Program-made: the position numbers and the translations under genes
Part shown: one piece after another, positions 3,643-20,765 of the stretch
Layout of the letters: the number at the start of each line of letters is the position of its first letter
Numbering within the stretch: position 1 is the stretch's first letter
Notes under the pieces: model-generated
What the model was told of the DNA's origin: nothing
Seen by the model: only the letters and a program-made list of their open reading frames with translations
The model's database searches: none
From: Holdemania massiliensis AP2
GTDB taxonomy: Bacteria > Bacillota_I > Bacilli_A > Erysipelotrichales > Erysipelotrichaceae
DNA: 64,000 nt
Assembly (NCBI RefSeq): GCF_000327285.1
Contig: NZ_HE998568.1
Coordinates: 62,001 to 126,000 of the forward strand
Reading direction: 5' to 3'

Positions 3643-3656
3643 TCGGATTCATTTTT
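3631..3656 (+). terminator. Terminator overlapping the stop of the small membrane protein gene
   Basis: A perfect 8-bp stem GAATCCGA/TCGGATTC with loop ATGA, then ATTTTTT. The TGA stop codon lies in the loop. Confidence 0.85.
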
Positions 3657-4263: not shown

Positions 4264-5856
4264 TTATTTGTAATTCGCGTAAGCAAATTCATTCGCTGCT
4301 GCAAGATCAGGAACATCTCGCGGCGTACCGTCTAAATTCGCAGCGACCGGCAGACAGTCACCGTTTTCAAACAGGAAGACCATAGGCATATCTTCGCTCA
4401 TTATCCGCTGAACTTCACTGTAGGCCTTTGCCCGCTCAGCATCATCCGCAGTTTCTACGCCAGCCTGCAGCGCGGCATCCATCTCTGGGTTGTTATACAG
4501 GCCAACATTGGTACCACCAGTCGATGCCACACGTCCGGCAACACCAGAAACGTCTGGTCCCTGATAGCCGGCAAGCATCGTCATATCAAAGTTGGAATTG
4601 GTAATAACTTTATCCTGCCAAGCGGCCATTTCCATGATATTCAAGGTCACGTTGATGCCGATCTCTTTCAGATTTTCTTTAACAATCTGAGCAATATCCT
4701 TAAAGTTTCCGCTTTCGAAGATATCCATCGTCATATCAAAATAGAATCCATCATCCCGTAATGTATACCCAGCATCTTCAATCAAAGCTTTGGCGGCAGC
4801 CACATCACGTGCTGGCATTGTGTACTGCTTGTCCAGATACTTGCCTTCCCATAATGGAGAAATGAAGTATTCCGCCAAAGCTCCTGTGCCATTAGCAACG
4901 CGATCATAAATACCCTGACGGTCAACACCCATGGCGACAGCCTGACGCAGCCGAACATCTTTAAAGATACTCGTTTCCATATTGAAGGTAATATACGTTC
5001 TGTTGATTGACAGATAGTGGAAATGCTTATAATTCGGATCATTATCCAGTTCATGCTTATTCGCTGTCGGAACCACCATTCCTAAATAATCAACTTCACC
5101 ATTCAGTAACGATTGATAAGCTGTAGTCGAATCCGGAATGACCTGGAAGATCAGCTTTTCAATAATCGGCTGGCCACCAAAATATTCTTCATTTTTTACT
5201 AATGTTGTTCCAACGCCAGCTTCATATTTTTCAAATTTATACGGACCGGTTCCAATTGGATTCCAGGCTGCTGGATTGGATACAAAATCACTGTACTGCG
5301 GATCATTCCAGATATGTTCCGGCATGATAAACGTTGCATACCAGCCTAATTTCGCCACAATCGCTACATCACGCTGACTCAAATTTAAGACAACGGTATT
5401 ATCATCCGGACATTCAATCGAAGTCACTGAAGCCACTGAATCTGACTTAGTCCATTTCTGTTCCTTCATCGTGTCCAATGTCCACTTGACATCAGCCGAA
5501 GTAAACGGTTCACCGTCATGCCATTTCACTCCTTCATGTAAATGAAAGGTTAATGTCAGCCCATCTTCCGAGAATTCCCAGCTTTCAGCCAGATCCGGCA
5601 GAATCTGATCATTAGCATTTAGCTTTACCAATCGGCTGTAGATATTCTGATTTGCACTATAAGCATAATCATCCGACTTCATATCCGGATTGAAACTTTG
5701 CGGATCCCCTTGAACTGCATAAATCAAAACATCCTGCGCTGGTATATTGCCTTCTGTTCCTGGAGTACCGTCCCCTTTCGGCGTGTCTGTACCGCATCCC
5801 GCCAATGCCAAACAAGCCATCAAAAAGGCTGCCAACAACTTTGTCCATTTCTTCAT
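4264..5856 (-). CDS. Peptide ABC transporter substrate-binding lipoprotein, subgroup A, copy 1
   Basis: 530 residues, the usual size for family-5 extracellular solute-binding proteins (OppA/DppA type). The signal peptide ends in lipobox LAGC, with Cys21 as the lipidation site. The family signature region WHDGEPFTSADVKWTLD is at about 110. This copy shares AGYQGPDVSGVAGRVAST near residue 430 with the next three paralogues, which separates subgroup A from the copies at 14390, 16163 and 30012. No permease or ATPase is adjacent, so it presumably delivers to the dppBCDF system at 17910-21731. A dyad (ATGAAA-TAAC-TTTCAT) lies about 125 bases upstream. Ligand unknown; short peptides are most likely. 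Confidence 0.93.
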   Translation of the reverse strand: MKKWTKLLAAFLMACLALAGCGTDTPKGDGTPGTEGNIPAQDVLIYAVQGDPQSFNPDMKSDDYAYSANQNIYSRLVKLNANDQILPDLAESWEFSEDGLTLTFHLHEGVKWHDGEPFTSADVKWTLDTMKEQKWTKSDSVASVTSIECPDDNTVVLNLSQRDVAIVAKLGWYATFIMPEHIWNDPQYSDFVSNPAAWNPIGTGPYKFEKYEAGVGTTLVKNEEYFGGQPIIEKLIFQVIPDSTTAYQSLLNGEVDYLGMVVPTANKHELDNDPNYKHFHYLSINRTYITFNMETSIFKDVRLRQAVAMGVDRQGIYDRVANGTGALAEYFISPLWEGKYLDKQYTMPARDVAAAKALIEDAGYTLRDDGFYFDMTMDIFESGNFKDIAQIVKENLKEIGINVTLNIMEMAAWQDKVITNSNFDMTMLAGYQGPDVSGVAGRVASTGGTNVGLYNNPEMDAALQAGVETADDAERAKAYSEVQRIMSEDMPMVFLFENGDCLPVAANLDGTPRDVPDLAAANEFAYANYK

Positions 5857-5950
5857 ATTTTCCTTCCCTCCTCATTTTTGCTTCATAAGAAAAATATAAT
5901 TTGAGTTTACATGTTTGAAAGAATATCGTCAAGACATTTCACGCATTTTC

Positions 5951-5998
5951 TTTCATTTAATGTATAATTTTCATTGTTGATTATGAAATAACTTTCAT
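5951..5998. promoter_or_regulatory. Possible operator: repeated TTTCAT/ATGAAA half-sites
   Basis: Within 48 bases there are three TTTCAT and one ATGAAA hexamers. The last pair forms the dyad ATGAAA-TAAC-TTTCAT at 5983-5998. It lies upstream of the binding-protein gene that starts at 5856 and resembles the perfect palindrome upstream of dppB (21821-21841). A weak promoter can be read inside it. The protein that would bind is unknown. Confidence 0.35.
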
Positions 5999-6012
5999 TG
6001 AGACGCAATAGA

Positions 6013-6064
6013 TAAAAAAAGTCTCGGCTTCTGAGCGAATCACTCGCTTCTTTCACCGAAACTT
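6013..6064 (-). terminator. Terminator after peptide-binding protein gene 6072-7640
   Basis: A two-part hairpin: outer arms around TTTCGG/CCGAGA and inner arms AGCGA/TCGCT with loop GTGAT, ending in CTTTTTTTA on the minus strand. Confidence 0.75.
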
Positions 6065-6071
6065 TAATTTC

Positions 6072-7640
6072 TTATTCTTTTACAAATTCGATATATGTGA
6101 ACTCATTAGAAGCTGCCTTTGTCGGCTCCTGATATGGCGTCCCCTTCAAAATTTTCTTAACTGGTACTTTAGCACCATTATCCATAAACAGGATAATCGG
6201 CATTTCTTCACTCATAATCCGCTGAACTTCGCTGTAAACAGCTTTTCTTTCTGTTTCATCGGATACCTGAACACCTTTTTCAAGTAATGCGTCCAATTCA
6301 GGATTAGAATAGCCCATAAAGTTCATCGAAGTTCCTGTACCTACACGACCGGAAACACCAGAAACATCAGGTCCTTGATATCCTGCAGACATTGTCATTT
6401 CAAAATCATGATTCAATTTAACCGTATCGCCCCAGGCTGCATATTCCATCATCGTCAGTTTAACGTCAATGCCGACTTCTTTTAGATTTGTCTGAATAAT
6501 CGTTGCCGCATCTTTGAAATAGCTACTGTCAAAAAATTTCATCTCTGTTGAGAAATAAATCCCGTTGGCATCCTTTGTATAACCGGCTTCTTCTAATAAT
6601 TGCTGAGCTTTGGCAATGTCGCGTTCCGGCATCTTGTACTGTTCATCCGCAAAGCCTGTGTTCGGAGCGATAAATGTCGAAGCCACAGCACCTGTACCGC
6701 CAGCACAGCGATCATAAATCATCTGACGATCAATACCATAGGCAATCGCCTGACGAACACGAGCGTCCTTAAATTTTTCATTCGTAACGTTCATCGTGAC
6801 ATAAGAACGATTCATGCCAACAACTGGATACACTTCATAGTTCGGATCATTGTCAAAATCATTGGCATTCTGCGTTGGGATTGACGTATAGTAATCTACC
6901 TCACCGGAAATAAATGCCTGCAGCGCAGTCGTTGCATCTGGAATAATAGAGTAAATGACTTTAGCGACTTTTGCTTTATCACCCCAGTAATCTTCATTCC
7001 GTTCTAGCACAATTTGAACGCCTTTTTGAAATTCAACAAACTTAAACGGGCCTGTTCCAACTGGTTTCATGTTGTATTCGTTTGTTGCCGTATCCGTACC
7101 TTCATACAAATGCTTCGGCATAATAAACGTTCCATACCAAGACAATTTCGCAATCAAGGAAACATCCGGGTATTTCAGATTCATGACGACGGTATTATCA
7201 TCCGGACATTCAATCGATTCAACAGATGCAAAGCTGTCGCTCTTATTCCATTTTTCTGCAATTAACGTGTCATATGTCCATTTAACATCCGCGGAAGTAA
7301 ATGGCTCCCCATCATGCCACTTCACGCCTTCATGGAGGTGGAATGTAACCTGTGTGCTGTCTTCGTTCCATTCCCAAGTTTCTGCCAGATCAGGAAGAAC
7401 TTGATCATAGGCATTTAATTTAACCAAACGGTTAAAAATGTTCTGGTTTGGTCCCCAAGCGTTGTCATCTGATTTAAAATCCGGGTGAAAGCTGGATGGG
7501 TCATTGGCAACAACTGCGACCAGCGTGTCATTCGTTGTTTCTGGAGTTTGTTCAGCAGGAGCGTTATTCTTGCCGCCGCACGCTGTGAGCGTCAAGGCTG
7601 CAATTAACCCTACTGCAAACAATTTGATTATTTTTTTCAT
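6072..7640 (-). CDS. Peptide ABC transporter substrate-binding lipoprotein, subgroup A, copy 2
   Basis: 522 residues; lipobox LTAC gives Cys21 as lipidated N-terminus. Family-5 features include WHDGEPFTSADVKWTYDTL and VGTGPFKFVEFQKGVQIVL. The subgroup A stretch AGYQGPDVSGVSGRVG is present. It diverges from copy 1 mostly in the central lobe that would line the peptide pocket (FISGEVDYYTSIPTQNAND), which suggests a different peptide preference. Own terminator; monocistronic by context. The start is supported by AAGAGGAAACTT before the ATG. Confidence 0.93.
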   Translation of the reverse strand: MKKIIKLFAVGLIAALTLTACGGKNNAPAEQTPETTNDTLVAVVANDPSSFHPDFKSDDNAWGPNQNIFNRLVKLNAYDQVLPDLAETWEWNEDSTQVTFHLHEGVKWHDGEPFTSADVKWTYDTLIAEKWNKSDSFASVESIECPDDNTVVMNLKYPDVSLIAKLSWYGTFIMPKHLYEGTDTATNEYNMKPVGTGPFKFVEFQKGVQIVLERNEDYWGDKAKVAKVIYSIIPDATTALQAFISGEVDYYTSIPTQNANDFDNDPNYEVYPVVGMNRSYVTMNVTNEKFKDARVRQAIAYGIDRQMIYDRCAGGTGAVASTFIAPNTGFADEQYKMPERDIAKAQQLLEEAGYTKDANGIYFSTEMKFFDSSYFKDAATIIQTNLKEVGIDVKLTMMEYAAWGDTVKLNHDFEMTMSAGYQGPDVSGVSGRVGTGTSMNFMGYSNPELDALLEKGVQVSDETERKAVYSEVQRIMSEEMPIILFMDNGAKVPVKKILKGTPYQEPTKAASNEFTYIEFVKE

Positions 7641-7697
7641 AAGTTTCCTCTTCTTTCTTTATTTATTATATCAGATGTCATGTGTTATAAAACAATG

Positions 7698-7732
7698 AAA
7701 AACGGAGAATTTATGTAAAAATCCTCCGTTTT
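7698..7732 (-). terminator. Terminator after peptide-binding protein gene 7743-9335
   Basis: Arms AAAACGGAG and CTCCGTTTTT enclose a 16-base AT-rich loop; the 3' arm provides the T tract on the minus strand. Confidence 0.7.
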
Positions 7733-7742
7733 CTGAATTTTT

Positions 7743-9335
7743 TTATTTTTTCAGCGTAACATACGTAAATTCGTTCGTTGCCGCTTTGTCTGGAACCTGA
7801 TATGGTGTACCGTCAAATTTCGCCTTGACAGGAATAACCTGACCATTGTCCAGTAACAGAACTATTGGCATATCTTCGCTCATCAGACGCTGAACCTCAT
7901 CGTAGGCTTCCTTACGAATTGCAGGATCCGAATTCTGAGCGCCTTTTTCGAGTGCTGCTTCCATTGCATCGCTGGAATAACCCGTAAAGTTGTTCGATCC
8001 GGTTTTTCCAACACGCATATAGATACCCGAAATATCGGGTCCCTGATAGCCTGCCAACATTGTCATATTGAAATTACGGCCTTCCTTAACCTGATCACCC
8101 CAAGCTGCGTATTCCATCATATTCAGATCCACTTTAATACCCGCTTCTTTCAGACTGGACTGAACAATTGCCGCTACATCTTTGAAGTTTCCGCTTTCAA
8201 ACGCGTCCAATGTTACCGTAAGATAATAGCCGTCAGCGTTTTTCTTCAATCCGCATTCTTCCATCAGGGCCTGAGCCTTCTCAATATCGCGTTCAGGCAG
8301 TTTGTAATTATCATTCAGATAGTCTTTAAACAGTGGCGAAACAAAATATTCCGGCAAAGCGCTCACACCATTTCCCATACGGTCAACAATGGCCTGCCGA
8401 TCAATCGCGTAAGCCACCGCCTGACGCAGCTTCGGATTGTTAAACGGTTCTTTCTCCATATTAAACGTCAGATAAGTTCTGTTAATGCTTAAGAAGGAGA
8501 AGACTTCGTAATTCGGATCATTATCGAAGTCGTGCAAATTGGCAGTCGGCAAGCTTGTCAGATAATCAATTTCACCATTCTTAAATGCTTCCACAGCCGT
8601 ATTGGCATCCGGAATAATCTGGAAAACCAAGCGTTCGATTTCCGGCGCACCGCCGAAGTAATCCTCATTCCGTTCTAAAGTTACACTCTGTCCGCTCTTG
8701 TATTCGACAAACTTAAACGGCCCCGAACCAATTGGCTTCTGCATTGCCGGATTTCTTGCAAAGTCCGGATAAGCTGGATCATTCCAGATATGTTCCGGCA
8801 GAATGAAAGTTGCATACCAAGCTAATAATGGAACAAGTCCGGCATCCGGATTCTTCATATTGAAGACTACGGTCAGATCATCCGGTGCTTCAATCGTATC
8901 GACATTGACAAAGGTGTCTGATTTCGACCATTTGTTTTCAATTATCGTATCATATGTCCATTTAACATCCTTTGAAGTTAATGGTTCACCGTCATGCCAC
9001 TTCACGCCGTCGCGCAGATGGAAGGTGAGCGTCATATTATCGTCGCTCCATTCATACGAAGTAGCCAAGTCAGGAATCGGCACATCCCCTGGAGCCAGTT
9101 TATACAACCGATTGAACAGGTTCTGAGCCATCGGCCACAAGTAGTCGTCCGACTTCATATCCGGATTAAAACTGGATGGATCACCTTCAACACGGGTGAT
9201 AAACGTACCGATCGTTTCTGTATTCTCTTTATCAGAATCCGTTGTCTGTGTTGGTTTATCCCCGCCGCCTGAACACCCGCTTAGCAGCAAAGCGACACAA
9301 AGCAGGGCTGATAGAATCTTAACGCTTTTTTTCAT
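7743..9335 (-). CDS. Peptide ABC transporter substrate-binding lipoprotein, subgroup A, copy 3
   Basis: 530 residues; lipobox LSGC, Cys21. The mature protein begins with a Gly/Ser-Thr-rich tether before the folded domain. Conserved family pieces are WHDGEPLTSKDVKWTYDTI and IGSGPFKFVEYKSGQSVTL, and the subgroup A motif reads AGYQGPDISGIYMRVGKT. The TSADVKW segment is replaced by TSKDVKW, as in copy 14390. It has its own terminator and a 240-base upstream gap rich in A+T. It is presumed to feed the single dppBCDF transporter. Confidence 0.93.
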   Translation of the reverse strand: MKKSVKILSALLCVALLLSGCSGGGDKPTQTTDSDKENTETIGTFITRVEGDPSSFNPDMKSDDYLWPMAQNLFNRLYKLAPGDVPIPDLATSYEWSDDNMTLTFHLRDGVKWHDGEPLTSKDVKWTYDTIIENKWSKSDTFVNVDTIEAPDDLTVVFNMKNPDAGLVPLLAWYATFILPEHIWNDPAYPDFARNPAMQKPIGSGPFKFVEYKSGQSVTLERNEDYFGGAPEIERLVFQIIPDANTAVEAFKNGEIDYLTSLPTANLHDFDNDPNYEVFSFLSINRTYLTFNMEKEPFNNPKLRQAVAYAIDRQAIVDRMGNGVSALPEYFVSPLFKDYLNDNYKLPERDIEKAQALMEECGLKKNADGYYLTVTLDAFESGNFKDVAAIVQSSLKEAGIKVDLNMMEYAAWGDQVKEGRNFNMTMLAGYQGPDISGIYMRVGKTGSNNFTGYSSDAMEAALEKGAQNSDPAIRKEAYDEVQRLMSEDMPIVLLLDNGQVIPVKAKFDGTPYQVPDKAATNEFTYVTLKK

Positions 9336-9528
9336 ACTCTATTTCCTTCCCTTTCTTTAAAAACAAAAAAATTATGGAGCTTGATCACTGTCCAATAGAA
9401 TCCCTCCCATTCACATAAGTTTATGATACAAGTGGAAGAAAAAGAATTCAAGCTTTTTTCTGTAAATATTTCATATATTTTGAAAATTGTTTTTCATAGC
9501 AAAGACACATTTTCAAAACTGATCATAA

Positions 9529-9560
9529 GAAAAAGACACGCCCAATTTGAGCATGTCTTT
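9529..9560 (-). terminator. Terminator after peptide-binding protein gene 9577-11172
   Basis: Imperfect arms AAAGACATGC and GCGTGTCTTT around a loop, followed by TTCTTATG on the minus strand. Confidence 0.65.
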
Positions 9561-9576
9561 AAAAGGTTGTATGAAA

Positions 9577-11172
9577 TTATTCAGCGCGGTATGTGTAAGT
9601 GTACTCCGAAGAAGCTGTCTTATCAAACAATTCAATCGGCATACCCTTCATTTCCTTTTTAATCGCATATTTGTAACCGTTGTCGATAATAGGGATGATC
9701 GGCAGGTCAGCCCGCATGATCTTCTGTATTTCTTTATAACATTCGATTCTTTCTTCTTTATTAGACAGAGTTACACCCTTTGCTAACAAAGCATCCAATT
9801 CAGGATTGGAATAGCCGCCGATATTCATCGAAGCGCCAGTTTCAACACGTCCGGATACACCAGCGATATCTGGTCCCTGATAGCCGGCCAGCATCGTCAT
9901 TTCAAAGTTCTTGTTAACCTGAACTTTATCCTGCCAAGCCGCCATTTCCATCATGTTGATCTTCAGATCAATACCGGCTTCTTTGACGTTCTGCTGAATA
10001 ACCGCAGCCAGATCTTTCCAGTTGCCGCTTTCAAAAGCGTCTAATGTGATATGCATATAGTAGCCATCTGCATCTTTTGTATAACCTGCTTCTTCCAGCA
10101 GCTTCATCGCTTGTTCAACGTTGCGTTCTGGTAATTTGGAATCTTCATCCAAATATTCCGTGAAAGCATGAGAAATCATGTACTTAGATGGTTCGCCAGC
10201 AGCCATGGTTCTATCCCAGCACCCCTGGTTATCAATCGCTAACGCGAATGCTTCACGGACACGTGGATCCTGGAAACGTTCGTCAGCTAAATTAAATGTG
10301 ACATAAGTACGGTTGATGCCCATTTCTTCATAGAAAACATAGTCCGGATTACCTTCCAGTTCACCATCATGAGCTGCCGGGATCATACTGCACAGATCGT
10401 CGACTTCACCATTCATGAAAGCTTCCCACAATGTATTATCATCATTGATGATCGCAAACTTCAGCGTTTTAGCATATGGCTTATCTCCCCAGAAGTCATC
10501 GTTGCGCTCTAAGGTTACATACTGACCGGCCTTGTATTCAACAAACTTGAACGGTCCGGTGCCGATTGGATTCTGGTTTGCCGGGTTCGTCGCAGTATCT
10601 GTACCTTCATAGATATGCTTCGGCATAATGAAGGTGCCATACCAAGCTAACTTCGCAATAATCGAAACATCCGGAGTCTTTAAGTTCATGACAACGGTGT
10701 TGTCGTCCGGACATTCAATGCTGTCAATGTTGGACAGATTGTCCGCTTTCGCCCATTTTTCAGCGATTGCCGTATCATAAGTCCACTTAACGTCAGCGGA
10801 AGTAAACGGTTCGCCATCATGCCATTTTACGCCATCATGCAGGTGGAATGTCAGGGTCATACCATCTTCACTGAATTCATACGACTCAGCCAAGTCTAAG
10901 TTAATCGAAGTTTTAGAACCTAATTTAACCAGACGGTTAAAGATGTTCTGGTTGATCGGCCATGCGCCGTCATCGGACTTGAAGTCCGGGTTGAAGCTCT
11001 GCGGATCCTGCTGTGTGACCATGATCAAAGTCTGATCAGTAGGAATTCCGCCATTTTCGCCGCCTGTCTGTCCGCCTTCGTTGGTTCCGCCGCCGTTGTT
11101 ATTCGATCCACAACCAGCCAGCGTTAAGGCCAGAGCCAGACACACGACTAAAACTTTAAGTAGTTTTTTCAT
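9577..11172 (-). CDS. Peptide ABC transporter substrate-binding lipoprotein, subgroup A, copy 4
   Basis: 531 residues; lipobox LAGC, Cys21, then an unusually Gly/Asn-rich flexible tether of about 20 residues. Family pieces are WHDGEPFTSADVKWTYDTA and IGTGPFKFVEYKAGQYVTL; subgroup A motif AGYQGPDIAGVSGRVETG. The central region has changes in otherwise conserved positions (ALAIDNQGCWDRTMAAGEPS, where relatives have DRQ), so its ligand may differ. It borders the AT-rich RiPP island. A small dyad (CGATTG/CAATCG) lies in its leader at 11193-11212. Confidence 0.93.
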   Translation of the reverse strand: MKKLLKVLVVCLALALTLAGCGSNNNGGGTNEGGQTGGENGGIPTDQTLIMVTQQDPQSFNPDFKSDDGAWPINQNIFNRLVKLGSKTSINLDLAESYEFSEDGMTLTFHLHDGVKWHDGEPFTSADVKWTYDTAIAEKWAKADNLSNIDSIECPDDNTVVMNLKTPDVSIIAKLAWYGTFIMPKHIYEGTDTATNPANQNPIGTGPFKFVEYKAGQYVTLERNDDFWGDKPYAKTLKFAIINDDNTLWEAFMNGEVDDLCSMIPAAHDGELEGNPDYVFYEEMGINRTYVTFNLADERFQDPRVREAFALAIDNQGCWDRTMAAGEPSKYMISHAFTEYLDEDSKLPERNVEQAMKLLEEAGYTKDADGYYMHITLDAFESGNWKDLAAVIQQNVKEAGIDLKINMMEMAAWQDKVQVNKNFEMTMLAGYQGPDIAGVSGRVETGASMNIGGYSNPELDALLAKGVTLSNKEERIECYKEIQKIMRADLPIIPIIDNGYKYAIKKEMKGMPIELFDKTASSEYTYTYRAE

Positions 11173-11330
11173 GTATTCTTTCCTCCTCTATCGATTGTTA
11201 TGATGCAATCGTTAGAATAATGATAAACGATTTCACAGGAAATGTGAAGGATTTGTGATAAATGAAAAAATAAAAATCATGAGTTTTCGGTAAAATTCAT
11301 GAAATTATTCATTGAACAATGCAAAGATTT

Positions 11331-12331
11331 TCATTTTTTGCGGTACTTACTATAACAAAAATCACAAATTGGAAAGCATGGCCTGGGTTGAATACTTCCT
11401 GTCATCAACAAACTACGCCCCGGACAAATTCGACATTTTTTCCTCAATTCACATTTTCTACAATCACTAGAATCTTCTAAATTCAAATACTGTTCAAAAT
11501 TCTTCCAAGCTTCATCAAAAGTATACTCATCTAAGCTATATTTCCATTCATGTAGCATATTACACATTAGTAAGTCATTATTAACAGACAAAAATGCATT
11601 ATACCTGCCAGAGCCGCAATGAATAAGACGATTTTCAGGCAAAAATTGATGAATATTGACCCAGCCTTCTTTCTCCATACTATCGTCCTTGTGATATTTT
11701 TCCAGCGATAACATTTTTTCAATTGGTAGTTGATATTTCAAAGTTGGCGAATTCATGCTATCTACAATTAATGAATCAAATCCAAACTTGATACCTTCTT
11801 TTATTGCGAATTCTCGAATATTAAAAAAATCATCATAATTTTCATTCAAAACAAAAGTTTTTAAGTATAGCTTAATATTGTTTTCTTTTAACTTATAGAC
11901 ATTCCTGATTACTTTACGAAAATTCTTTGTACCTGTAACATTTAAATACGTTTCTTCGCTAAATCCATATAAAGTTATTTCTACTAGATAAGGCTTATAC
12001 TTACTCAATAAATCAATTGTTGCATCATCTAAAAGTGCCCCGTTAGTAAATAAAGTAATTACACATCCCTTTTTTATTGCATGAGTATATATCTCCGGGA
12101 AATCAGGATTTAAAAAAATTTCTCCACCTGTAAAATTTAAAAATAAACAGCCTCTTTCAACAACAGTATCAATAAAGTTAATAGCTTTCTCTTTTTTAAA
12201 AATCTGTCCTTTTTGGACACATAGCAATGTAAACATCTGAAGTTACATTGCTGTGTTAGTTCTATTTCACAAGCTAAAGGGACCCTATGTTTCGAAGCTT
12301 CAAGGAACATTTCTGTTATCACTGTATTCAT
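11331..12331 (-). CDS. Radical SAM/SPASM peptide maturase, frame broken at a slippery site
   Basis: Two overlapping frames together encode one maturase. The upstream frame starts at ATG 12331 and carries the radical SAM cluster motif CNFRCLHC (Cys29, 33, 36). The downstream frame carries the TGGE loop and a C-terminal SPASM domain (CRKCELRKKCRIC, then more Cys to the end). A -1 shift at A-AAA-AAG (12191-12197) joins them into about 333 residues with normal family spacing between CxxxCxxC and TGGE. Such enzymes use S-adenosylmethionine to install crosslinks in a precursor peptide. The start overlaps the PqqD-like gene by ATGA. Base composition is far more AT-rich than flanking genes. Either programmed frameshifting, a loss-of-function indel or a homopolymer sequencing error would explain the break. 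Confidence 0.85.
12191..12211 (-). other. Possible -1 ribosomal frameshift site
   Basis: The heptamer A-AAA-AAG occupies 12191-12197 in exactly the phase needed (zero-frame codons TTA AAA AAG), and slippage by -1 enters the SPASM-encoding frame. An SD-like AAGGA at 12207-12211 ends 9 bases upstream. This arrangement resembles the E. coli dnaX signal. No strong downstream hairpin is obvious. A missing A in the six-A run would give the same effect. Confidence 0.4.
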
Positions 12332-12606
12332 TCAGCTACCTCAATGATGCCGGATTTTATCAAATTTTCCAAAACATTATTAACGTCATTTATCAGTGTT
12401 TCTTTCTCCACACTATATTTGTTAGATAGTATATTCAAAATATCAGCTATACTGTAATCTTGTTCTAAAAACTCCAGTATCTCTCTGGCAGTAATGTTCA
12501 TAAATAATGCATGGCTCATATCTGGCATTTCATCAAAAACAGGAATGATAAAATATTTGTGTCCTATTATTCGTTTTAAATGGGGTTTAACATTATAATT
12601 ACGCAT
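12328..12606 (-). CDS. PqqD-like RiPP precursor recognition protein
   Basis: 92 residues with the PqqD-type RRE pattern: an N-terminal strand region ending in DEMPDMSHALFMNITAREILEFLE, then the helical part YSIADILNILSNKYSVEKETLINDVNNVLENLIKSGIIE. Such proteins bind the leader of a precursor peptide and present it to the radical SAM enzyme. The ATG follows GAGGAGAG with good spacing. It is translationally coupled (ATGA overlap) to the maturase and lies 58 bases downstream of the precursor-like peptide gene. Confidence 0.85.
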   Translation of the reverse strand: MRNYNVKPHLKRIIGHKYFIIPVFDEMPDMSHALFMNITAREILEFLEQDYSIADILNILSNKYSVEKETLINDVNNVLENLIKSGIIEVAE

Positions 12607-12627
12607 CTTTTAATCTCTCCTCATTAT

Positions 12628-12661
12628 ATAAAACGGGAAGAACATTATCTTCCCGTTTTAT
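12628..12661 (-). terminator. Hairpin between precursor peptide and PqqD-like gene (partial terminator)
   Basis: A perfect 14-bp stem, ATAAAACGGGAAGA with TCTTCCCGTTTTAT, and a 6-base loop. It begins 2 bases after the precursor stop codon and is followed by a short T/A tract, then the ribosome-binding site of the PqqD-like gene. Such elements commonly let most transcripts end after the precursor, giving peptide in excess over enzymes. Confidence 0.75.
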
Positions 12662-12663
12662 AA

Positions 12664-12771
12664 TTAGTCTCTACAATCTCTAAAAATCTGGTACTGGTCA
12701 TTTTCATGTTCTACAATTTCTTCATTAACTAAATCAACAGAAACAATGGATGGCTTTACGTATTTTTCCAT
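12664..12771 (-). CDS. 35-residue RiPP precursor-like peptide
   Basis: A short gene with an ATG at 12771 preceded by AAAGGGG at good spacing, and with its own promoter upstream. The product starts MEKYVKPSIVSVDLVNEE and ends DQYQIFRDCRD. The KYxKPxI opening is typical of small leader peptides handled by radical SAM systems; the acidic middle would be leader and the last about 11 residues the core. The core has a single Cys plus Tyr, Phe, Arg and Asp as possible crosslink sites. The order precursor, PqqD-like protein, radical SAM/SPASM enzyme supports the assignment. No exporter or protease is adjacent. Confidence 0.75.
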   Translation of the reverse strand: MEKYVKPSIVSVDLVNEEIVEHENDQYQIFRDCRD

Positions 12772-12811
12772 ATTTATCCCCTTTCTTTAAATGAACTGTA
12801 TTTCTACTTTG

Positions 12812-12839
12812 ATTATAGCATTTTATAATTTTATAACAA
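12812..12839 (-). promoter_or_regulatory. Promoter of the RiPP operon
   Basis: On the minus strand TTGTTA (12834-12839), a 16-base spacer and TATAAT (12812-12817), with an extended TGC directly before the -10. The precursor ATG is about 40 bases downstream. Confidence 0.75.
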
Positions 12840-12914
12840 TGAGGTAAGAATTCTTTTTTATTATTAAATAACAAAATGATAAAAAACCCTTATTTAATTA
12901 ATCATGTAATATTT

Positions 12915-14297
12915 TTACCGATTTTTCTGCAGATAATCCGCAACCAGCATCCCGCTTTCAAGCTGAACGGCAATCAGCTTGCGAATCGGAATGACCTCGT
13001 AATGCAGTTCTTTTTCAGCGATTTCCGCACGCTTGGCAAATTCCTTTTCTCCCTCATCATGAATACGCTGCAGACGCTGCGCGGCTTCTAAGCTCGGATT
13101 CTTTGCTAACTCATGCTCGCAGGCGCGGATTAAGAGCGTCCACTGCAGTAATACACGGTACTTCGGGATTTCCAAGTTGTCAAACGCTTCGGATTCCTTG
13201 CACAGATCATCATAATTGGAATCCTGACGGATAAAATCGCATTCCTGACGGTAATCTTCCTCAAAATGTTCATAACCGTTGCTGACCATCTTTGCAAATC
13301 CATTGTCATCGCTGATCAGATCGGCGATCTGATCATAACGGAGCTTGACAGCCTTGCGGTTTTCATGCAGGATCTCACGGCCTTTTAAAGCAGCTTCCCG
13401 GCGTGAAAAATCCATCAGCTTGTCACTTTGAATCCGCGGTTCATAGAAATAAGGCAGCTCCGTGACCAAGGTCGTCGTATCATAGCCCTGCTGCAAGGCA
13501 TAATCCGCACTGCTGGTGCCGGTCGACATCAGCTTTTCCGGAGCGACAGTGCCATATTTCTCATTGTAATCATAAGTATCTTTGGAACTGATCATCGGAT
13601 AGATCGCCTGAGAGAACGGCGTGATGTAGTTAACCTCCGGCTCGCCTAAGTGAAGCGGAATATCCTGCTTGGCCGTCGCCGCGTAGAACTTATCCCACAG
13701 CTCCGGAATTTCTCTTGTCAAATACCAATACGTTCCGCCGAAGCCCGCATTATGCAGCGAATACATAAACTGCGGCTGAATCTTATCAATCAAATTCATG
13801 AGGCAAACGGTTTCCGGAATCGGCGTATCATAAGTATAATTTTTGTAGTGGAAAGGGAAATTCCATTCTACCTGTTCATAGCCTGCCGGACGGAAGTAAT
13901 GACGGGTAAAGTTTGTCAGAGTAATCGGCCCTTTAAACCAACCTTCATTCAGCTGCGTGCCATCCAGATCAATGCTTTTGATCAGATACCACGTATAATC
14001 CAGTTCGCTGCGCAGCCCTTCGTCCTCCGCTAAAGCGCGGGAGAAATACTCCAGCAGCATGGCTCCCATCGGTTCATTGGGATGCGGACAGCCAAACATC
14101 AGGGCATTGCGGCTTCCCTTGCCGATCTTCAGACAGTAGATCGGATGCCCTTTGCGGGATTTTCCAGCTTCAAAGATTTCTACGATATCCGGAAATTCGG
14201 CAGCCAGTTTTTTTGAATTTTCATCCATTTCATCAACCGTCAGAAATTGTTGATAATCAGGAATGTTGTCGATCAGTTTTTGAATAAAATCAGCCAT
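12915..14297 (-). CDS. M14-family zinc carboxypeptidase
   Basis: 460 residues, no signal peptide. Zinc ligands are His72 and Glu75 (HPNE) and His182 (SLHNAG); Glu280 in VTELPYFYEP is the candidate general base. M14 enzymes remove C-terminal residues from peptides or cell-wall stems. The RSRKGHPIYCLKIGKG-like opening (about 45-61) is typical. The long C-terminal extension (about 300-460) is helical and of unknown role. It is located between subgroup A and subgroup B peptide-binding proteins, which suggests that it trims imported peptides in the cytosol. Confidence 0.9.
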   Translation of the reverse strand: MADFIQKLIDNIPDYQQFLTVDEMDENSKKLAAEFPDIVEIFEAGKSRKGHPIYCLKIGKGSRNALMFGCPHPNEPMGAMLLEYFSRALAEDEGLRSELDYTWYLIKSIDLDGTQLNEGWFKGPITLTNFTRHYFRPAGYEQVEWNFPFHYKNYTYDTPIPETVCLMNLIDKIQPQFMYSLHNAGFGGTYWYLTREIPELWDKFYAATAKQDIPLHLGEPEVNYITPFSQAIYPMISSKDTYDYNEKYGTVAPEKLMSTGTSSADYALQQGYDTTTLVTELPYFYEPRIQSDKLMDFSRREAALKGREILHENRKAVKLRYDQIADLISDDNGFAKMVSNGYEHFEEDYRQECDFIRQDSNYDDLCKESEAFDNLEIPKYRVLLQWTLLIRACEHELAKNPSLEAAQRLQRIHDEGEKEFAKRAEIAEKELHYEVIPIRKLIAVQLESGMLVADYLQKNR

Positions 14298-14342
14298 GTT
14301 TCATTCTCCTTTTCTCTTTCATGGTTATCATTATATCAGAAA

Positions 14343-14375
14343 ACAGGCAAATCGGTTGGATTTGCCTGTCTTTTT
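14343..14375 (-). terminator. Bidirectional terminator after peptide-binding protein gene 14390-15994
   Basis: A perfect 11-bp stem ACAGGCAAATC/GATTTGCCTGT with a 5-base loop. T-rich sequence flanks it on both strands. It serves the gene ending at 14390. Confidence 0.85.
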
Positions 14376-14389
14376 CTTCCTGCTTTGAA

Positions 14390-15994
14390 TTATTGATCCA
14401 TCCAGACTTTCGCCATTTCATAGGTTCCATACAAGCTGGCCATTTCTGGTTCAAACGGACTGTTGTGAATATAGCTCTTCACCGGATACACGGCTGTAAA
14501 ATCCTTCAAAATAACGATCGGAACATCATCATGCATGATCTGCTGGACTTCTTTGTAATAAGGTGCGCGTTCTTCTTCAGAGAACACCTGAACTCCTTTG
14601 TTCAGCGCTTCATCCAACGCTGGGTTGTTGTACTTCGTCAGATTCAATGAGCCTTCGGAATGCACGCGGTTGCGGATCGCGGAAACGTCCGGTCCCTGTC
14701 CGCCGGAACACAACGCGATATCGAAATTGTAATCGTCAATAACTTTGGTCATCCACGCGCCCATTTCCAGGACATTCAGCTTGACGTCGATGCCGATCTG
14801 CTTCAAGCTGTCCTGCACAACAATGGCGGAATCCTTGAAGTCGCCGGAATCAAAGGTTGTTAATTCACAGCTGAAATAGATTCCGTTCGCGTCCGCCGTA
14901 TAGCCTGCTTCTTCGATGAGCTTCCGGGCTCCCTCAACATCATAAGCCGGGATCTTGGCGTCATCATTGAGCGCCCATGGGTACATCGGCGAAATGTAGT
15001 ATTCGGATACAGCGCCGAAGCCCTTCGCAGCTTTATCCAGAACGGCCTGGCGGTTGACGGCCATATCAACAGCCTGGCGAACGCGGACATCCGCAAACGG
15101 ATTTCCTTCGCCAATATTAAACGACAGATAGGTTCTTGAGCTGGAAACATACTGATAAACGTTGTAATTCTCAGGATTATCAATCAATTCCTGCAAATTC
15201 GAGGTCGGCACACCGCTCTGCATATCGTCAACTTCACCGTTGAGATAGGATTGGTATGCTGTCGAAGCATCCGGGATAATCGAGATAATCAATTTATCCA
15301 GATACGGTGCGCCGTCCCAATAATCCTCATTCCGTTCCATTTCGATCGAAACCCCCGGGGTGTACTTGACAAATTTAAACGGACCAGTGCCGATGGGATG
15401 CATGTTGTGTTCGTTCTGCGTCCAGTCTGTCCCCTCATATAAATGCGCCGGCATAATCCAAGTGCCCAGCCAGCTCAATACGCTGACGACGGAAGCATCC
15501 GGCTGCTTGAGATGGAAAACCGCTTTATAATCCCCGTCGGCCGTGACAGAATCAATCATGCTTAGCGTGTTGGACTGATAACCCTCTTCCAATACCTTTG
15601 TAAAAGTCCAGACGACGTCTTTGGAGGTAAACGGTTCGCCGTCATGCCATTTCACATTTTCACGCAAATTAAACGTTAAATCCATACCATCTTCGCTGAA
15701 TTCCCAATCCGTAGCCAGATCCGGCACCACATGGTTGTCGACAGTCATCTTAACCAGGCGGTTAAAAATATTGTATGTCGCCGGGAGCTGCAGATCGTCG
15801 GTCTTCATATTGGGGTTGAATGAATTCGGTTCGCCATGGCTGCGCATGACATACGTTCCCCCCTGAACCGGCTCGCCGGTCTGTTGCTCTTCATTCTCAG
15901 ACTTAGGTGCTGCCGTTTGGCCGCCGCCTGCGCATCCGGTCAAAGTCAGCGCTAAGCACAGCATCACCAGCATGCTTTGAAACAGTTTCTTCAT
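14390..15994 (-). CDS. Peptide ABC transporter substrate-binding lipoprotein, subgroup B, copy 1
   Basis: 534 residues; lipobox LTGC, Cys21. Subgroup B marks are GEPVQGGTYVMRSHGEP after the tether, SGGQGPDVSAIRNRVHSEGS near residue 430 and a C-terminus ending in VWMDQ. Family pieces WHDGEPFTSKDVVWTFTKV and GTGPFKFVKYTPGVSIEM are present. It is downstream of the dppBCDF locus and of copy 16163, but each has its own terminator. A TTTCA-N5-TGAAA dyad lies about 110 bases upstream at 16104-16118. Confidence 0.93.
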   Translation of the reverse strand: MKKLFQSMLVMLCLALTLTGCAGGGQTAAPKSENEEQQTGEPVQGGTYVMRSHGEPNSFNPNMKTDDLQLPATYNIFNRLVKMTVDNHVVPDLATDWEFSEDGMDLTFNLRENVKWHDGEPFTSKDVVWTFTKVLEEGYQSNTLSMIDSVTADGDYKAVFHLKQPDASVVSVLSWLGTWIMPAHLYEGTDWTQNEHNMHPIGTGPFKFVKYTPGVSIEMERNEDYWDGAPYLDKLIISIIPDASTAYQSYLNGEVDDMQSGVPTSNLQELIDNPENYNVYQYVSSSRTYLSFNIGEGNPFADVRVRQAVDMAVNRQAVLDKAAKGFGAVSEYYISPMYPWALNDDAKIPAYDVEGARKLIEEAGYTADANGIYFSCELTTFDSGDFKDSAIVVQDSLKQIGIDVKLNVLEMGAWMTKVIDDYNFDIALCSGGQGPDVSAIRNRVHSEGSLNLTKYNNPALDEALNKGVQVFSEEERAPYYKEVQQIMHDDVPIVILKDFTAVYPVKSYIHNSPFEPEMASLYGTYEMAKVWMDQ

Positions 15995-16116
15995 ATTGTT
16001 TTGAATCCTTTCTTTTCTCCCCTAGAGATTAATCTCAGTTTACTGCTTTCTGTAAATCAAGTCAATCTCTTTCTATTTGTTTTTATATTTTTTCAGAAAA
16101 CTCTTTCACAAAATGA

Positions 16117-16148
16117 AAATGAGTCCGATCTTAAGATCAAACTCATTT
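16117..16148 (-). terminator. Terminator after peptide-binding protein gene 16163-17755
   Basis: Near-perfect arms AAATGAGTTTGATC and GATCGGACTCATTT with a 4-base loop, followed by TCATTTTG on the minus strand. Confidence 0.75.
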
Positions 16149-16162
16149 CCTCAGCTTCGTTC

Positions 16163-17755
16163 CTATTCTTCAATCCAGACCAGCGAGAATTCATTGGAAG
16201 CCACAGAGTGAATGCCCTCCTCAGAATACGGATGACCATGGATCGTATTGCGAACCGCTACGGTGAACGTCGCTTCCTTCACTGGAACAATCGGCAGTTC
16301 TTCCGCCAGGATCACCTGCGCCTTTTTATAAATTTCAGCGCGTGCGGCTTCATCGGTTGTCACTGCGCCTTCATCCAGCAAAGCGTCCAGTTCAGCATTC
16401 TTGCAATGGGCCAAGTTGAAGGCACCGGCAGAGTGGACACGCATCGAGATAGCGGACGCATCAGGACCCTGCGATCCGGATAACATCGCCATCTGATAAT
16501 CGCTGTCAACCTGAACTTTTTGCTGCCATGTTCCCATTTCTGTAACATTCAGCTTCACATCAATGCCGATTTCTTTTAAATTCTGCTGCAGAACCGTCGC
16601 GGTATCCTTGAAATCACCGCTGTCAAACAGATCCAGAGTTACAGAGAAATAGATTCCATTGGCATCTGCCGTATAACCAGCCTCTTCAATCAGCTTGCGG
16701 GCGGCTTCTACATCCCGGGCTGGAATGGTAACTTCATCATTCATGGCCCAGGCGAAAACCGGACTCATGTAATACTGCGGGACAGCGCCGATTCCCTTAG
16801 CGGCCTTATCGAGAACTTCCTGGCGATCTATACCCAGATTGACCGCTTCACGCACACGAACATCATTAAACGGTTCTGCATCAAAGTTAAATGTCAAATA
16901 AGTGCGGTTATTAGAAGCTCTTTCATAAACCGTATAATCCGGATTGGCTTTCAGACCGGCGATCTCATTGCTTGGGATATTCAGCATCAAATCGTCCACT
17001 TCGCCGTTCATATAGGCCTGATAAGCTGTATTCGCATCCGGAATGATCGTAAAGATCAGTTTATCCAGATACGGAGCGCCTTTAAAATAATCTTCGTTGC
17101 GAACTAAAGTAATGGTCTGCGATTTCTCGTAGCTCTCAAACTTGAACGGACCGGTGCCAATTGGATGCATATTGGCTTCATTGGTAGCCCAATCTGTATT
17201 TTCATAAATATGCTTCGGTAAAATGAAAGTGCCTAACCAGCCCAATGAGCTTAAAATGGCAGCGCTCGGCGCGCTCATCTGAATTACAACGGTATTCGCA
17301 TCCGGACAAGTAATCTCCTCAATCATCTTGAAGCTGTTGGACTGGAATCCTTCGGTACGGATCATATCCAGCGTCCACTTGACATCTTCCGAGCTGAACG
17401 GCTCGCCGTCATGCCATTTTACATTGTCGTGCAGATGGAATGTCAGCGTTTTTCCATCTTCGCTGAATTCCCAGCTTTCCGCCAGATCTCCGACCAATTC
17501 CGTCGAAGCTGTCGTTTTAACTAAGCGATTAAATACGTTCATTGCGGTATAAGTCGCCATGTCGTCGCCCTTGACATCCGGATTAAAGCTGGCCGGATCG
17601 CTCGGCTGACGAACGATGTAGGTGCCTCCCTGAACGGGCTCGCCGGTATCGCCGGAGGGTGTCTGCGCATCGCCGTTTTCTTTCGGCGCGGATGAACAAC
17701 CCGCCAGCATGGCCAGCGCTAACAGAGCTGTCAGTGCTTTTCTTGCAAATTTCAT
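16163..17755 (-). CDS. Peptide ABC transporter substrate-binding lipoprotein, subgroup B, copy 2
   Basis: 530 residues from the ATG at 17755, which follows GAGGAGAAAGAAAG and gives a normal signal peptide with lipobox LAGC (Cys20). A frame-open extension to 17830 lacks signal-peptide character and is rejected. Subgroup B marks: GEPVQGGTYIVRQPSDP, SGSQGPDASAISMRVHSAG and end VWIEE. It is the binding protein nearest to dppF, so it is the best candidate for the cognate receptor of the transporter, although a terminator separates them. Confidence 0.93.
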   Translation of the reverse strand: MKFARKALTALLALAMLAGCSSAPKENGDAQTPSGDTGEPVQGGTYIVRQPSDPASFNPDVKGDDMATYTAMNVFNRLVKTTASTELVGDLAESWEFSEDGKTLTFHLHDNVKWHDGEPFSSEDVKWTLDMIRTEGFQSNSFKMIEEITCPDANTVVIQMSAPSAAILSSLGWLGTFILPKHIYENTDWATNEANMHPIGTGPFKFESYEKSQTITLVRNEDYFKGAPYLDKLIFTIIPDANTAYQAYMNGEVDDLMLNIPSNEIAGLKANPDYTVYERASNNRTYLTFNFDAEPFNDVRVREAVNLGIDRQEVLDKAAKGIGAVPQYYMSPVFAWAMNDEVTIPARDVEAARKLIEEAGYTADANGIYFSVTLDLFDSGDFKDTATVLQQNLKEIGIDVKLNVTEMGTWQQKVQVDSDYQMAMLSGSQGPDASAISMRVHSAGAFNLAHCKNAELDALLDEGAVTTDEAARAEIYKKAQVILAEELPIVPVKEATFTVAVRNTIHGHPYSEEGIHSVASNEFSLVWIEE

Positions 17756-17864
17756 CTTTCTTTCTCCTCGATTTCTATTTTTCCTTCCTTGCCGGAGCGG
17801 TAAACTCCCCACCCTTAGTCCGCTTTCCACACAGACTTATTGGTGAATGAAGGAAGTAAAGTTC

Positions 17865-17909: not shown

Positions 17910-18914
17910 TTACTTTTCAGCGTCGTTGCCGACAAAATGACAGGACACGATATGACCATTGCCCAGATCCTTGGCTTCCGGATATTCCTTAAAGCACTTT
18001 TCACAGGCTTGATAACACCGCGGAGCAAAATAGCAGCCCGGGCCGGTGTTGATCGGGGTCGGCGGTTCACCTTCAATTTCAATGATTTCACGTTTTTCCA
18101 GCGGATCCAAAGATGCGCAGTTGGAAATCAGAACTTTGGTATACGGATGCTGCGGATTGTGCAGAACCTCATCGGTAATGCCTGTTTCCACGATCCGGCC
18201 CAAATACATGACCGCCACCCGGTCGGAAATATAACGGGTAGTCGCAATATCATGACTGATGAAAACCATCGCCGTGTTTTCTTCCTTGCTTAATGTCTGC
18301 AGCATGTTGATGATATCGGCACGGATTGAAACGTCCAGCATGCTGACCGGTTCGTCAGCAACTAAGAACGTCGGACGCAGCAGCATGCTTCGCAAAATCG
18401 AAATACGCTGCAGCTGGCCTCCGGACAATTCATGCGGATGACGATAGATATAATCTTCAGCCGGTGCCATTCCGGCGTCTTCCAACGTCTTAATCATAAT
18501 GTTATGGCGTTCTTCCTCATTCGCGCCGATTTTGTGCAGCTTTAGGACGCTCATAAAGATTTTTTCGATTGTATAACGCGGGTCAAAGGTATCAAACGGA
18601 TTCTGGAAAATCATCTGGCAGGTCCGGCAGAATGCCAGGCGGTCTTTCTTTTTCAGCTGTGTGCTGGACACGCCGTTATATAAAATTTCACCAGCCGTCG
18701 GGTCTTCCAGATGAATCAAGACGCGGCCCAATGTCGATTTACCGCATCCGGATTCACCGATAACGCCCAGAGTTTCTCCTCTTTTCAGTTCAAAGCTAAC
18801 GCCGTCGACAGCTTTGATCGTCTGCTTTTTGCTGACTTTGCCATCCTGCTTGGTCACCTTTTTCTGGATATACCAGCGGGTCAGGTCTTTTACCTGAATA
18901 ACTGTATCCGACAT
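17910..18914 (-). CDS. dppF: Dipeptide/oligopeptide ABC transporter ATPase, DppF/OppF type
   Basis: 334 residues. Walker A GESGCGKST is at 53-61, the signature LSGGQ and Walker B FLVADEP follow, and the C-terminal oligopeptide-type extension carries the Cys-rich segment PGCYFAPRCYQACEKC, which in this family can hold an iron-sulfur cluster. It pairs with the neighbouring DppD-type ATPase to drive import. Last gene of a tight four-gene operon (3-base gap to dppD). Confidence 0.92.
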   Translation of the reverse strand: MSDTVIQVKDLTRWYIQKKVTKQDGKVSKKQTIKAVDGVSFELKRGETLGVIGESGCGKSTLGRVLIHLEDPTAGEILYNGVSSTQLKKKDRLAFCRTCQMIFQNPFDTFDPRYTIEKIFMSVLKLHKIGANEEERHNIMIKTLEDAGMAPAEDYIYRHPHELSGGQLQRISILRSMLLRPTFLVADEPVSMLDVSIRADIINMLQTLSKEENTAMVFISHDIATTRYISDRVAVMYLGRIVETGITDEVLHNPQHPYTKVLISNCASLDPLEKREIIEIEGEPPTPINTGPGCYFAPRCYQACEKCFKEYPEAKDLGNGHIVSCHFVGNDAEK

Positions 18915-18917
18915 CGC

Positions 18918-19886
18918 TTATTCACCTCCTACCTTGTGGCAGGCAACCTTCCAGTTGCCCTTTCCATTGACAGTCTTCAATTCCGGCTCTACCGTGCGGC
19001 ACTTTTCAGTCGCAAACGGACAGCGCGGAGCGAAAACACAGCCTGGAATTTCCTGACTTAAATCCGGCAGCGAACCCGGAATACCGCGCAGGTCGTTCTT
19101 CGCTCCCTTAAAGGAAGGGAACGATTTGAGCAGACCCTGTGTATATGGATGCTGCGGATTGACTAAAACGTCTTTCGTTTCGCCGCTTTCCATCAACCGG
19201 CCGGCATACATGACGGCAATCTTCTTGCAGGTGGAAGCAACGACGGATACGTCATGGGTAATCATGATGCGGGTAACATTCAAATTCTGTTCCAAGCTCA
19301 TGATTTCACGCAGAATCTGGCTCTGTGTCACAACGTCCAAAGCCGTTGTCGCTTCATCCAGAACCAACAGACGCGGATTATGAAGCAAGCTCAGCGCAAT
19401 GGAAACACGCTGCATCATACCGCCGGATAATTCATGCGGATATAACTCATAAACACGGTCGGACAGGTTAACAACTTTAAACAAATCATAAACCCGCTGT
19501 TTGATCTCTTCTTTTTGTGCATTTGGGAAATGCACACGGTAAACGTCTTCCATCTGAGCTCCGACTTTATGCACCGGACTCAGCGCGCTCATTGACTTCT
19601 GGAAAACGATCGACAGATCGGTCCAGCGCAGCGCATCCATTTCATCCTTGGTTAACTTTAACAGATCCTTGCCGTTGTAAAGAATTTCGCCGTCGACCTG
19701 CGTAATCCGCTGCGGCAGTAAGCGCAGTACGGCACTGGCCAGCGTGGATTTGCCGGAGCCGGATTCACCAACAATACCGATTGAATCCTGTTCCTCAATT
19801 TCCAGACTAACATGCTGACAGGCATGGACCTTTTTGTCTTTCATAATATAACGTACATTGACGTTTTTCAGTTCTAATAATGCCAT
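18918..19886 (-). CDS. dppD: Dipeptide/oligopeptide ABC transporter ATPase, DppD/OppD type
   Basis: 322 residues. Walker A GESGSGKST at 40-48, signature LSGGMMQRV, Walker B RLLVLDEATTALD, and the Cys-rich C-terminal element GCVFAPRCPFATEKC. It forms a heterodimer with the downstream ATPase. The gap to the upstream permease gene is 14 bases, with an AGGGAGGAAGG ribosome-binding site. Confidence 0.92.
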   Translation of the reverse strand: MALLELKNVNVRYIMKDKKVHACQHVSLEIEEQDSIGIVGESGSGKSTLASAVLRLLPQRITQVDGEILYNGKDLLKLTKDEMDALRWTDLSIVFQKSMSALSPVHKVGAQMEDVYRVHFPNAQKEEIKQRVYDLFKVVNLSDRVYELYPHELSGGMMQRVSIALSLLHNPRLLVLDEATTALDVVTQSQILREIMSLEQNLNVTRIMITHDVSVVASTCKKIAVMYAGRLMESGETKDVLVNPQHPYTQGLLKSFPSFKGAKNDLRGIPGSLPDLSQEIPGCVFAPRCPFATEKCRTVEPELKTVNGKGNWKVACHKVGGE

Positions 19887-19900
19887 TTTTTCCTTCCTCC

Positions 19901-20752
19901 CTAGTTATTGGCGTCCATCTTAGGCGAGAGCACGCGGTTGAGGCCGTCACCGATGAGGAAGAATGTCAGAACGGTGAAGACAACGGCAACGCCGGCAAAG
20001 GTGGAAATCCACCAGCCCTTCGGCATATACTGCTTGCCATGGTAGATAATCTGACCCCAGCTGACGACGTTTGGATCACCTAAGCCCAAGAACGACAGGC
20101 CGGCTTCGGACAGGATCGCGCTCGATACGTTCATCGTCGTCTGCGCGATAATCGGGAAAATTCCATTTGGAATAATATGTCTGAACATGATGCTGAAGCG
20201 GCTTTCTCCCATCGCCTGAGCACTCTTAACAAACGTTCTCTCCTTCAAGGAGATCGCCTGAGCCCGCATCAGACGGGCGTTGCCAGTCCAGGAAGTCAAA
20301 CCGATAACGATCATGATATACATGATATTGCTGCCAAACAGCGCAACGATGATCAGGATCAAGAAGAACGACGGCGTCATCAGGAAGAAGTTCATGAACT
20401 CTGAGATGAAGCGGTCGATCTTGCCGCCGAAGAAACCGGCGATTCCGCCGATGCAGGTTCCTAAGATACCGGAAATGCTCGCGGCTACAACACCGATCAT
20501 TAATGAAGTCCGTGTTCCATAGATAATTTCGCTTAAGACGTCGCGGCCTAAACCGTCTGTGCCCAGGATATGTCCCGGGGTGCCCGGTCCAGCAACCAGC
20601 GCATCATATAATTTATACGGATCACATGGAGCGATAATCGGTGCAAACAGCGCTACACAAAGCAGGACGATCAGAAGAATCACACCCATGCGCAGCTGCG
20701 AGTTCTTCTTCAATACCCGCATTACCGCCTGAAAAATATTGTCTTTTTTCAT
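19901..20752 (-). CDS. dppC: Dipeptide/oligopeptide ABC transporter permease, DppC/OppC type
   Basis: 283 residues with six expected membrane helices. The N-terminal FAPIIAPCDPYKLYDA segment and the EAA loop (AQAMGESRFSIMFRHIIPNG) that contacts the ATPases are both visible, as is GLSFLGLGDPNVVSWGQ, a hallmark of this permease half. It is 13 bases downstream of the DppB-type gene. Confidence 0.92.
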   Translation of the reverse strand: MKKDNIFQAVMRVLKKNSQLRMGVILLIVLLCVALFAPIIAPCDPYKLYDALVAGPGTPGHILGTDGLGRDVLSEIIYGTRTSLMIGVVAASISGILGTCIGGIAGFFGGKIDRFISEFMNFFLMTPSFFLILIIVALFGSNIMYIMIVIGLTSWTGNARLMRAQAISLKERTFVKSAQAMGESRFSIMFRHIIPNGIFPIIAQTTMNVSSAILSEAGLSFLGLGDPNVVSWGQIIYHGKQYMPKGWWISTFAGVAVVFTVLTFFLIGDGLNRVLSPKMDANN

Positions 20753-20765
20753 TGTTCAGTTCCTC

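Follow-up and report, generated by a model that had tools for sequence, protein, structure and literature searches.

A minimal radical SAM RiPP cassette, probably acquired, with a maturase gene interrupted by a frameshift in the assembly of Holdemania massiliensis AP2

A short open reading frame (ORF), a gene for a PqqD-like protein and a radical SAM (rSAM) gene lie side by side among peptide-transport genes of Holdemania massiliensis AP2. In a preliminary description of the 64,000-nucleotide stretch of DNA analyzed here (the window) they were taken for a RiPP operon behind one promoter, with an intact maturase. The question is whether such a pathway is indeed present, how it reached this place and whether its enzyme can be made. 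We consider it probable that the locus is an acquired minimal rSAM RiPP cassette and that, in the assembly, a single-base frameshift disrupts its maturase gene. According to the ORF list and the sequence, the minus strand carries, in order, a 35-aa precursor, a strong hairpin, a 92-aa PqqD-type protein serving as RiPP recognition element (RRE) and a split rSAM gene (Table 1); just the three genes of the cassette lie between a peptidase gene and an OppA gene. Strand and order are those described before. A single maturase ORF, which had been assumed, is not there: the sequence has two, joined only by a -1 shift. A cassette of the rSAM/SPASM type with a discrete RRE calls for a short precursor adjoining the RRE and rSAM genes, which is found, and for an intact rSAM ORF with CxxxCxxC, which is not, the motif being in a separate 64-aa ORF. 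This frameshift, the hairpin and a drop in GC content had been overlooked at first reading.

Table 1. Positions in the window of the features of the cassette
Feature	Position	Strand	Basis
Acquired segment, extent	11325..12914	.	Empty site in congeners and GC drop
Candidate sigma-70 promoter, TTGTTA - 16 nt - TATAAT, TG before the -10 hexamer	12812..12839	-	Consensus scan, 10/12
Precursor gene, 35 aa, MEKYVKPSIVSVDLVNEEIVEHENDQYQIFRDCRD	12664..12771	-	ATG and SD (GAAAGGGG at 12778-12785)
Hairpin between precursor and pqqD, 15-bp perfect stem	12627..12662	-	Folding and inverted repeat I2
PqqD-type discrete RRE, 92 aa	12328..12606	-	PF05402, E 1.6e-9, above gathering cut-off
Maturase 5' fragment, 64-aa ORF with CNFRCLHCY; ATG overlaps the pqqD stop (ATGA, 12331-12328)	12137..12331	-	Radical_SAM positions 1-27, E 0.0011, below cut-off
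-1 frameshift site TTTTTAAAAAAG	12191..12202	-	Sequence
Maturase 3' fragment, 301-aa ORF with TGGE and seven auxiliary-cluster Cys	11331..12236	-	PF04055, E 2e-16

The PF04055 match of the 301-aa ORF starts at profile position 26, so it does not include the CxxxCxxC part; the maturase frame resumes in this ORF at 12191. Joining of the two frames gives a normal rSAM/SPASM protein of 333 aa (CYVSKKDRFLKK-EKAINFIDTVVERG...FTGGE), which is colinear from end to end with intact homologues and about 30-35% identical to those in other Bacillota. Its auxiliary cysteines (C239, C257, C291, C294, C300, C303 and C323) have the SPASM-like spacing C-x17-C ... C-x2-C-x5-C-x2-C ... C. All seven, together with all cysteines of the SAM cluster, are common to the joined protein and the 7-8 homologues aligned with it. 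The frame is intact in the homologues, and the split was found only in the window. Both translated fragments should be inactive, because the first is without most of the barrel and the second without the iron-sulfur motif. Judged from the sequence, an active maturase is not encoded as assembled; the pathway as sequenced should be inactive unless the gene is recoded, and may be silent in the sequenced strain.

At the shift, frame zero reads TTT TTA AAA AAG AGA and the -1 frame goes on as GAG AAA GCT ATT. The simplest cause, we infer, is the loss of one A from an A7 tract, which would leave A6 and yield exactly the observed sequence. The -1 frame downstream is free of further lesions over 286 codons and all its cysteines are intact, which points to a recent event, to an error or to a change that is tolerated. 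A mistake of assembly or sequencing at the homopolymer, with an intact and working cassette in the organism, can be entertained as a tentative explanation: the site lies in T5A6, the commonest context of indels, and such an error would leave the 286 codons and their cysteines undamaged, as they are. However, when the genes of the window were checked against the syntenic part of a congener (G079), 33 others (43.5 kb) were all in frame despite 42 A/T runs of at least six. The assembly is therefore not generally error-prone, which leaves room for a single error. One weak frameshift candidate was left by this check, a short plus-strand ORF of G079 that matches 31558-31976 and may not be a gene; a second apparent frameshift, at 48699-48914, was rejected as two adjacent genes. 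The same check showed that five genes intact in the window are broken in G079 (L131-L134), which amounts to several lesions in that assembly or strain.

A AAA AAG, the canonical slippery heptamer for -1 shifts, is found in the window at 12197-12191, in the zero frame, with AAAGGA 9 nt upstream, an arrangement like that of dnaX. A full maturase might thus be made by ribosomal -1 slippage on it, or by transcriptional slippage, or from a phase-variable tract, and the absence of decay in the downstream frame would agree with any of these. We nevertheless regard recoding as improbable, since no stimulatory RNA structure was found downstream of the shift (the RNA is less structured than shuffles, z +1.3 to +1.4), no homologue is split, and contraction of an A tract before G creates the heptamer automatically.

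The other parts of the cassette are intact. The presence of an RRE in the 92-residue protein, predicted earlier, is borne out by the PF05402 match and by its fold: the six best PDB matches of its AlphaFold model (pLDDT 76) are structures of two lasso RREs, TbiB1 and TfuB1, solved together with their leaders (probability 0.91-1.00, E above 0.07). It is the sole PqqD-family gene in its own genome, and viral contigs scanned with it gave no match. The candidate promoter stands before the precursor, where it is expected, but sites like it occur at about chance frequency in this AT-rich region (13 found against 10.2 expected in the consensus scan). The hairpin has a folding energy of -21.5 kcal/mol (z -5.68), and none of 200 shuffles was as stable. 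It is a probable attenuator or processing element, and its place after the precursor gene fits a precursor made in excess over its enzymes.

The precursor has the leader motif YVKPSI and a single cysteine, Cys33, followed by Arg-Asp (DCRD end). The leader fits the motif YxxPx[ILV] bound by RREs of the lasso and PQQ types. Binding of YxxP leaders to such RREs has been published, and [Y/W]xxPx[L/V/I/A/F/Y] is the motif recognised by discrete lasso RREs, common to the leaders of PQQ and of LPP, the linear polyphosphorylated peptides (PMC13381572, PMC12710340). Among shuffled window peptides 0.4% have the motif near the start. Four HMMs were built from the precursors of relatives, the window peptide being excluded; three ranked it first of 2053 small ORFs in the window, with weak E-values (0.33, 0.25 and 0.17), and the fourth, from single-Cys precursors alone, did not. 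There were no NCBIfam or Pfam matches to the precursor, no match in plasmids searched with it and no close homologue among the short ORFs beside related maturases; its core is unlike the core of any relative.

Relatives of the maturase were gathered by a profile scan of genome_contigs and by whole-genome searches, and they form a sparse group. Two kinds of YxxP precursor were seen at their loci: multi-Cys ones in minimal cassettes, and single-Cys ones ending in C-x(1-2)-[D/E] in clusters with a kinase and a signal peptidase. The first kind is found at eight minimal loci, where the rSAM gene adjoins a short ORF with an SD and a leader starting [KES]YxxP (L052 MKYVKPQVVKFEVSIKVNSNSSDRSSCDGGHCVKSRYGQDH; L058 MEYKKPEVQKVSLEAKGTEKEKSADGPSKCSNSCCYYRDGATW; L135 MKYEKPDFSEVEVSTTQNTVDSSGKEGASQCSASCCWGEGCWWA; also L054, L055, L062, L026 and L061). 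These precursors have 2-4 cysteines and lie downstream of the rSAM gene. The second kind is found in uncultured Bacilli, beside an rSAM/SPASM enzyme, an HprK-like kinase, PqqD and a signal-peptidase-like (SpI-like) protein, the kinase and the signal-peptidase-like proteins being assigned by eye. Eight loci of this group (L136 at 9937-12419, L137, L138, L141, L145, L147, L148 and L153) carry single-Cys YxxP precursors, such as MTEKQVKKEYQAPTIQVVEFTLQEGIAESLLSGENLVCIEELE of L147 and MKKKQKEIYESPQIDVIEFELEDSIAVSGDYGSSTTCGDEAFGGF of L145. The window has the DCRD end of the single-Cys kind and the gene layout of the minimal cassettes. In the rSAM tree it has a long branch and belongs to the side of the minimal cassettes, a side with 99/98 support; its exact sister is uncertain.

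An acidic residue stands two or three positions after the cysteine in all eight single-Cys relatives, which are not independent of each other, and in the window. Given this dependence, the shared C-x(1-2)-[D/E] spacing is no more than suggestive of an acidic crosslink partner. The earlier statement that the core fits no known precursor motif thus holds for named families and has to be modified for the single-Cys YxxP precursors beside related rSAMs. Similarly, the search for homologous short ORFs that had been proposed did find YxxP-leader ORFs adjoining related maturases, none of them a close homologue. Together with the PF05402 match and the fold match to lasso RREs, these ORFs corroborate the description of the locus as a RiPP cassette with an RRE and a SPASM-type rSAM.

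Since the paper on LPP (PMC13381572) does not mention radical SAM enzymes, the eight clusters with single-Cys precursors look like rSAM-bearing LPP-like clusters; several of them adjoin very large secreted-looking proteins (992-1170 aa). The minimal rSAM/PqqD cassette of L054 (2-5183) lies beside an FtsK/SpoIIIE ATPase and small helical proteins, and that of L052 (6085-10790) has as neighbours a protein with an FHA domain, a small ORF resembling an rSAM activase and an AAA protein of the Cdc48 type; these surroundings are possibly a secretion or conflict-type system. L052 and L053 are apparently one locus (equal match coordinates and identity, 27.8 kb contigs) in two MAGs, one assigned to Bacilli and the other to Lachnospiraceae, so that MAGs cannot be relied on to identify the hosts of such cassettes. 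In a genome of the same family (G134, locus L156), an rSAM/PqqD region has short Cys-rich peptides of up to 71 aa that share an NFxKPTFDFVLFNT leader, and an 81-aa FETPFAYKIEF peptide (665-880, 1271-1441 and 3655-3900).

The cassette differs sharply from its surroundings. Its GC content is 27-32% over about 1.5 kb, against 41-50% on both sides. In two congeners (G079 and G105) the site measures ~40 bp versus ~1590 in the window; the flanks align at 82-84%, and the peptidase and OppA-like genes are direct neighbours with the cassette missing. No rSAM homologue was found in three congeners at E <= 1e-15. We conclude that the cassette was probably acquired horizontally, because it forms a GC island, has a clean empty site in two congeners and lacks a homologue in three. 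Among 196 genomes of the family no other rSAM match was closer than 34%, a single-sequence scan of genome_contigs found no relative, and phages and plasmids have distant rSAMs only (20-30% identical). A search for mobile-element ends or terminal repeats around the cassette found none, only short chance-like repeats besides the hairpin. No paper joining Holdemania with rSAM and RiPP was found in the literature.

Absence from the congeners would also be expected if the transferred rSAM gene were a decaying pseudogene and the short ORF were just a remnant or had arisen by chance, as would the frameshift itself and the divergent core of the precursor. However, there is a single lesion in 1.4 kb, and the SD, the hairpin, the ATGA overlap and the leader motif are all intact; this explanation is rather unlikely.

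Because two congeners keep the flanks without the cassette, its peptide-transport context is incidental, one of the two possibilities named before, and on the sequence comparison the peptide-binding proteins and the peptidase were most likely at the site before it. A peptide signalling or uptake unit, in which the cassette cooperates with the OppA-like proteins and the M14-type peptidase on its flanks, would account for the adjacency; it is highly improbable, given flanks 82-84% identical around an empty site and related cassettes in unrelated contexts. The array itself comprises six tandem genes for OppA-like peptide-binding proteins, all on the same strand (4264-17830) and partly 65-76% alike in DNA, with transporter genes beside it at 17910-21731. 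The preliminary description was right that no exporter or leader peptidase is near the locus, and neither a C39 peptidase nor the lasso B2-type peptidase family (PF13471) was detectable in the genome as a whole.

We compared the acquired cassette with named systems. The best solved relative of the rSAM profile is SkfB (sporulation killing factor enzyme), followed by PqqE and SuiB; this likeness leaves the bond type undecided. Among the best matches listed, the joined protein reached no NCBIfam model at its cut-off, and the rSAM family therefore appears unnamed in NCBIfam. Its best match there is MftC of mycofactocin, which like PQQ (PqqD/PqqE) combines an rSAM/SPASM enzyme with a PqqD-type RRE, but the scores are low (MftC 74.2 bits, cut-off 265; PqqE 47.8 bits, cut-off 381); the cassette has no other genes of these pathways and the precursor no motif of them. 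Sactipeptide maturases are equally distant (AlbA 58.9/850, StsB 50.2/625 and SkfB 51/300 bits versus cut-offs). The streptosactin type (StsA precursor, StsB rSAM/SPASM, StsC discrete RRE) resembles the window in its small precursor, discrete RRE and rSAM with auxiliary clusters, and StsC-type RREs belong to the W/Y/LxxP-binding group (PMC12710340); unlike StsA, the window precursor has one Cys, with another leader and core. PapB, which acts on spaced motifs and connects their Cys with Asp/Glu (PMC9413430), makes ranthipeptides such as freyrasin with Cys-to-Asp/Glu thioethers. The window shares with these a SPASM-type rSAM and a lone Cys that an acidic residue follows closely (C-R-D), whereas the joined protein scores 47.6 bits against the PapB cut-off of 340. 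With LPP and the lasso peptides of Bacillota it shares the YxxPx[hydrophobic] leader and the lasso-type RRE (PMC13381572), but it has an rSAM enzyme in place of the HprK-like kinase or SpI peptidase of LPP, and no lasso cyclase or B2 peptidase. The closest resemblance in layout is to the unnamed minimal cassettes of Bacillota described above, whose rSAM enzymes share about 30-35% identity over the aligned parts, whose PqqD precedes the rSAM or is fused to it, and which have an adjacent YxxP-leader peptide; in the window, unlike there, the precursor lies upstream of the rSAM gene.

From motif, fold and precedent we infer how an intact copy would work. The PqqD-type RRE would take up the leader YVKPSI in its groove and hand the C-terminal core over to the SPASM-type rSAM enzyme. 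Given an active enzyme, a radical thioether might then form between Cys33 and an acidic residue close by, for example Asp35, or a different residue of the core; we put this forward as a plausible proposal held with some reserve, the Cys-to-Asp thioether being our best guess for the product from the sequence. Removal of the leader and export would be left to genes elsewhere in the genome. A bolder reading, which we think unlikely, is that the precursor of the window and the single-Cys YxxP precursors of the kinase/SpI-type clusters make up a class of rSAM peptides not described before. The lone C-terminal Cys would in these be bonded to the acidic residue that follows it at a distance of two or three positions, and the maturase in this strain would be switched by the A-tract frameshift.

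The acquired cassette draws attention to a group of rSAM/SPASM maturases, as yet without a name and sparse across Bacillota, that go with discrete lasso-type RREs and YxxP leaders. Precursors of the group measure about 35-49 aa, a size suited to quick co-expression tests, and the single-Cys C-x(1-2)-[D/E] ends provide a concrete crosslink hypothesis. The case of the window also illustrates that a readable 'operon' can conceal a broken enzyme.
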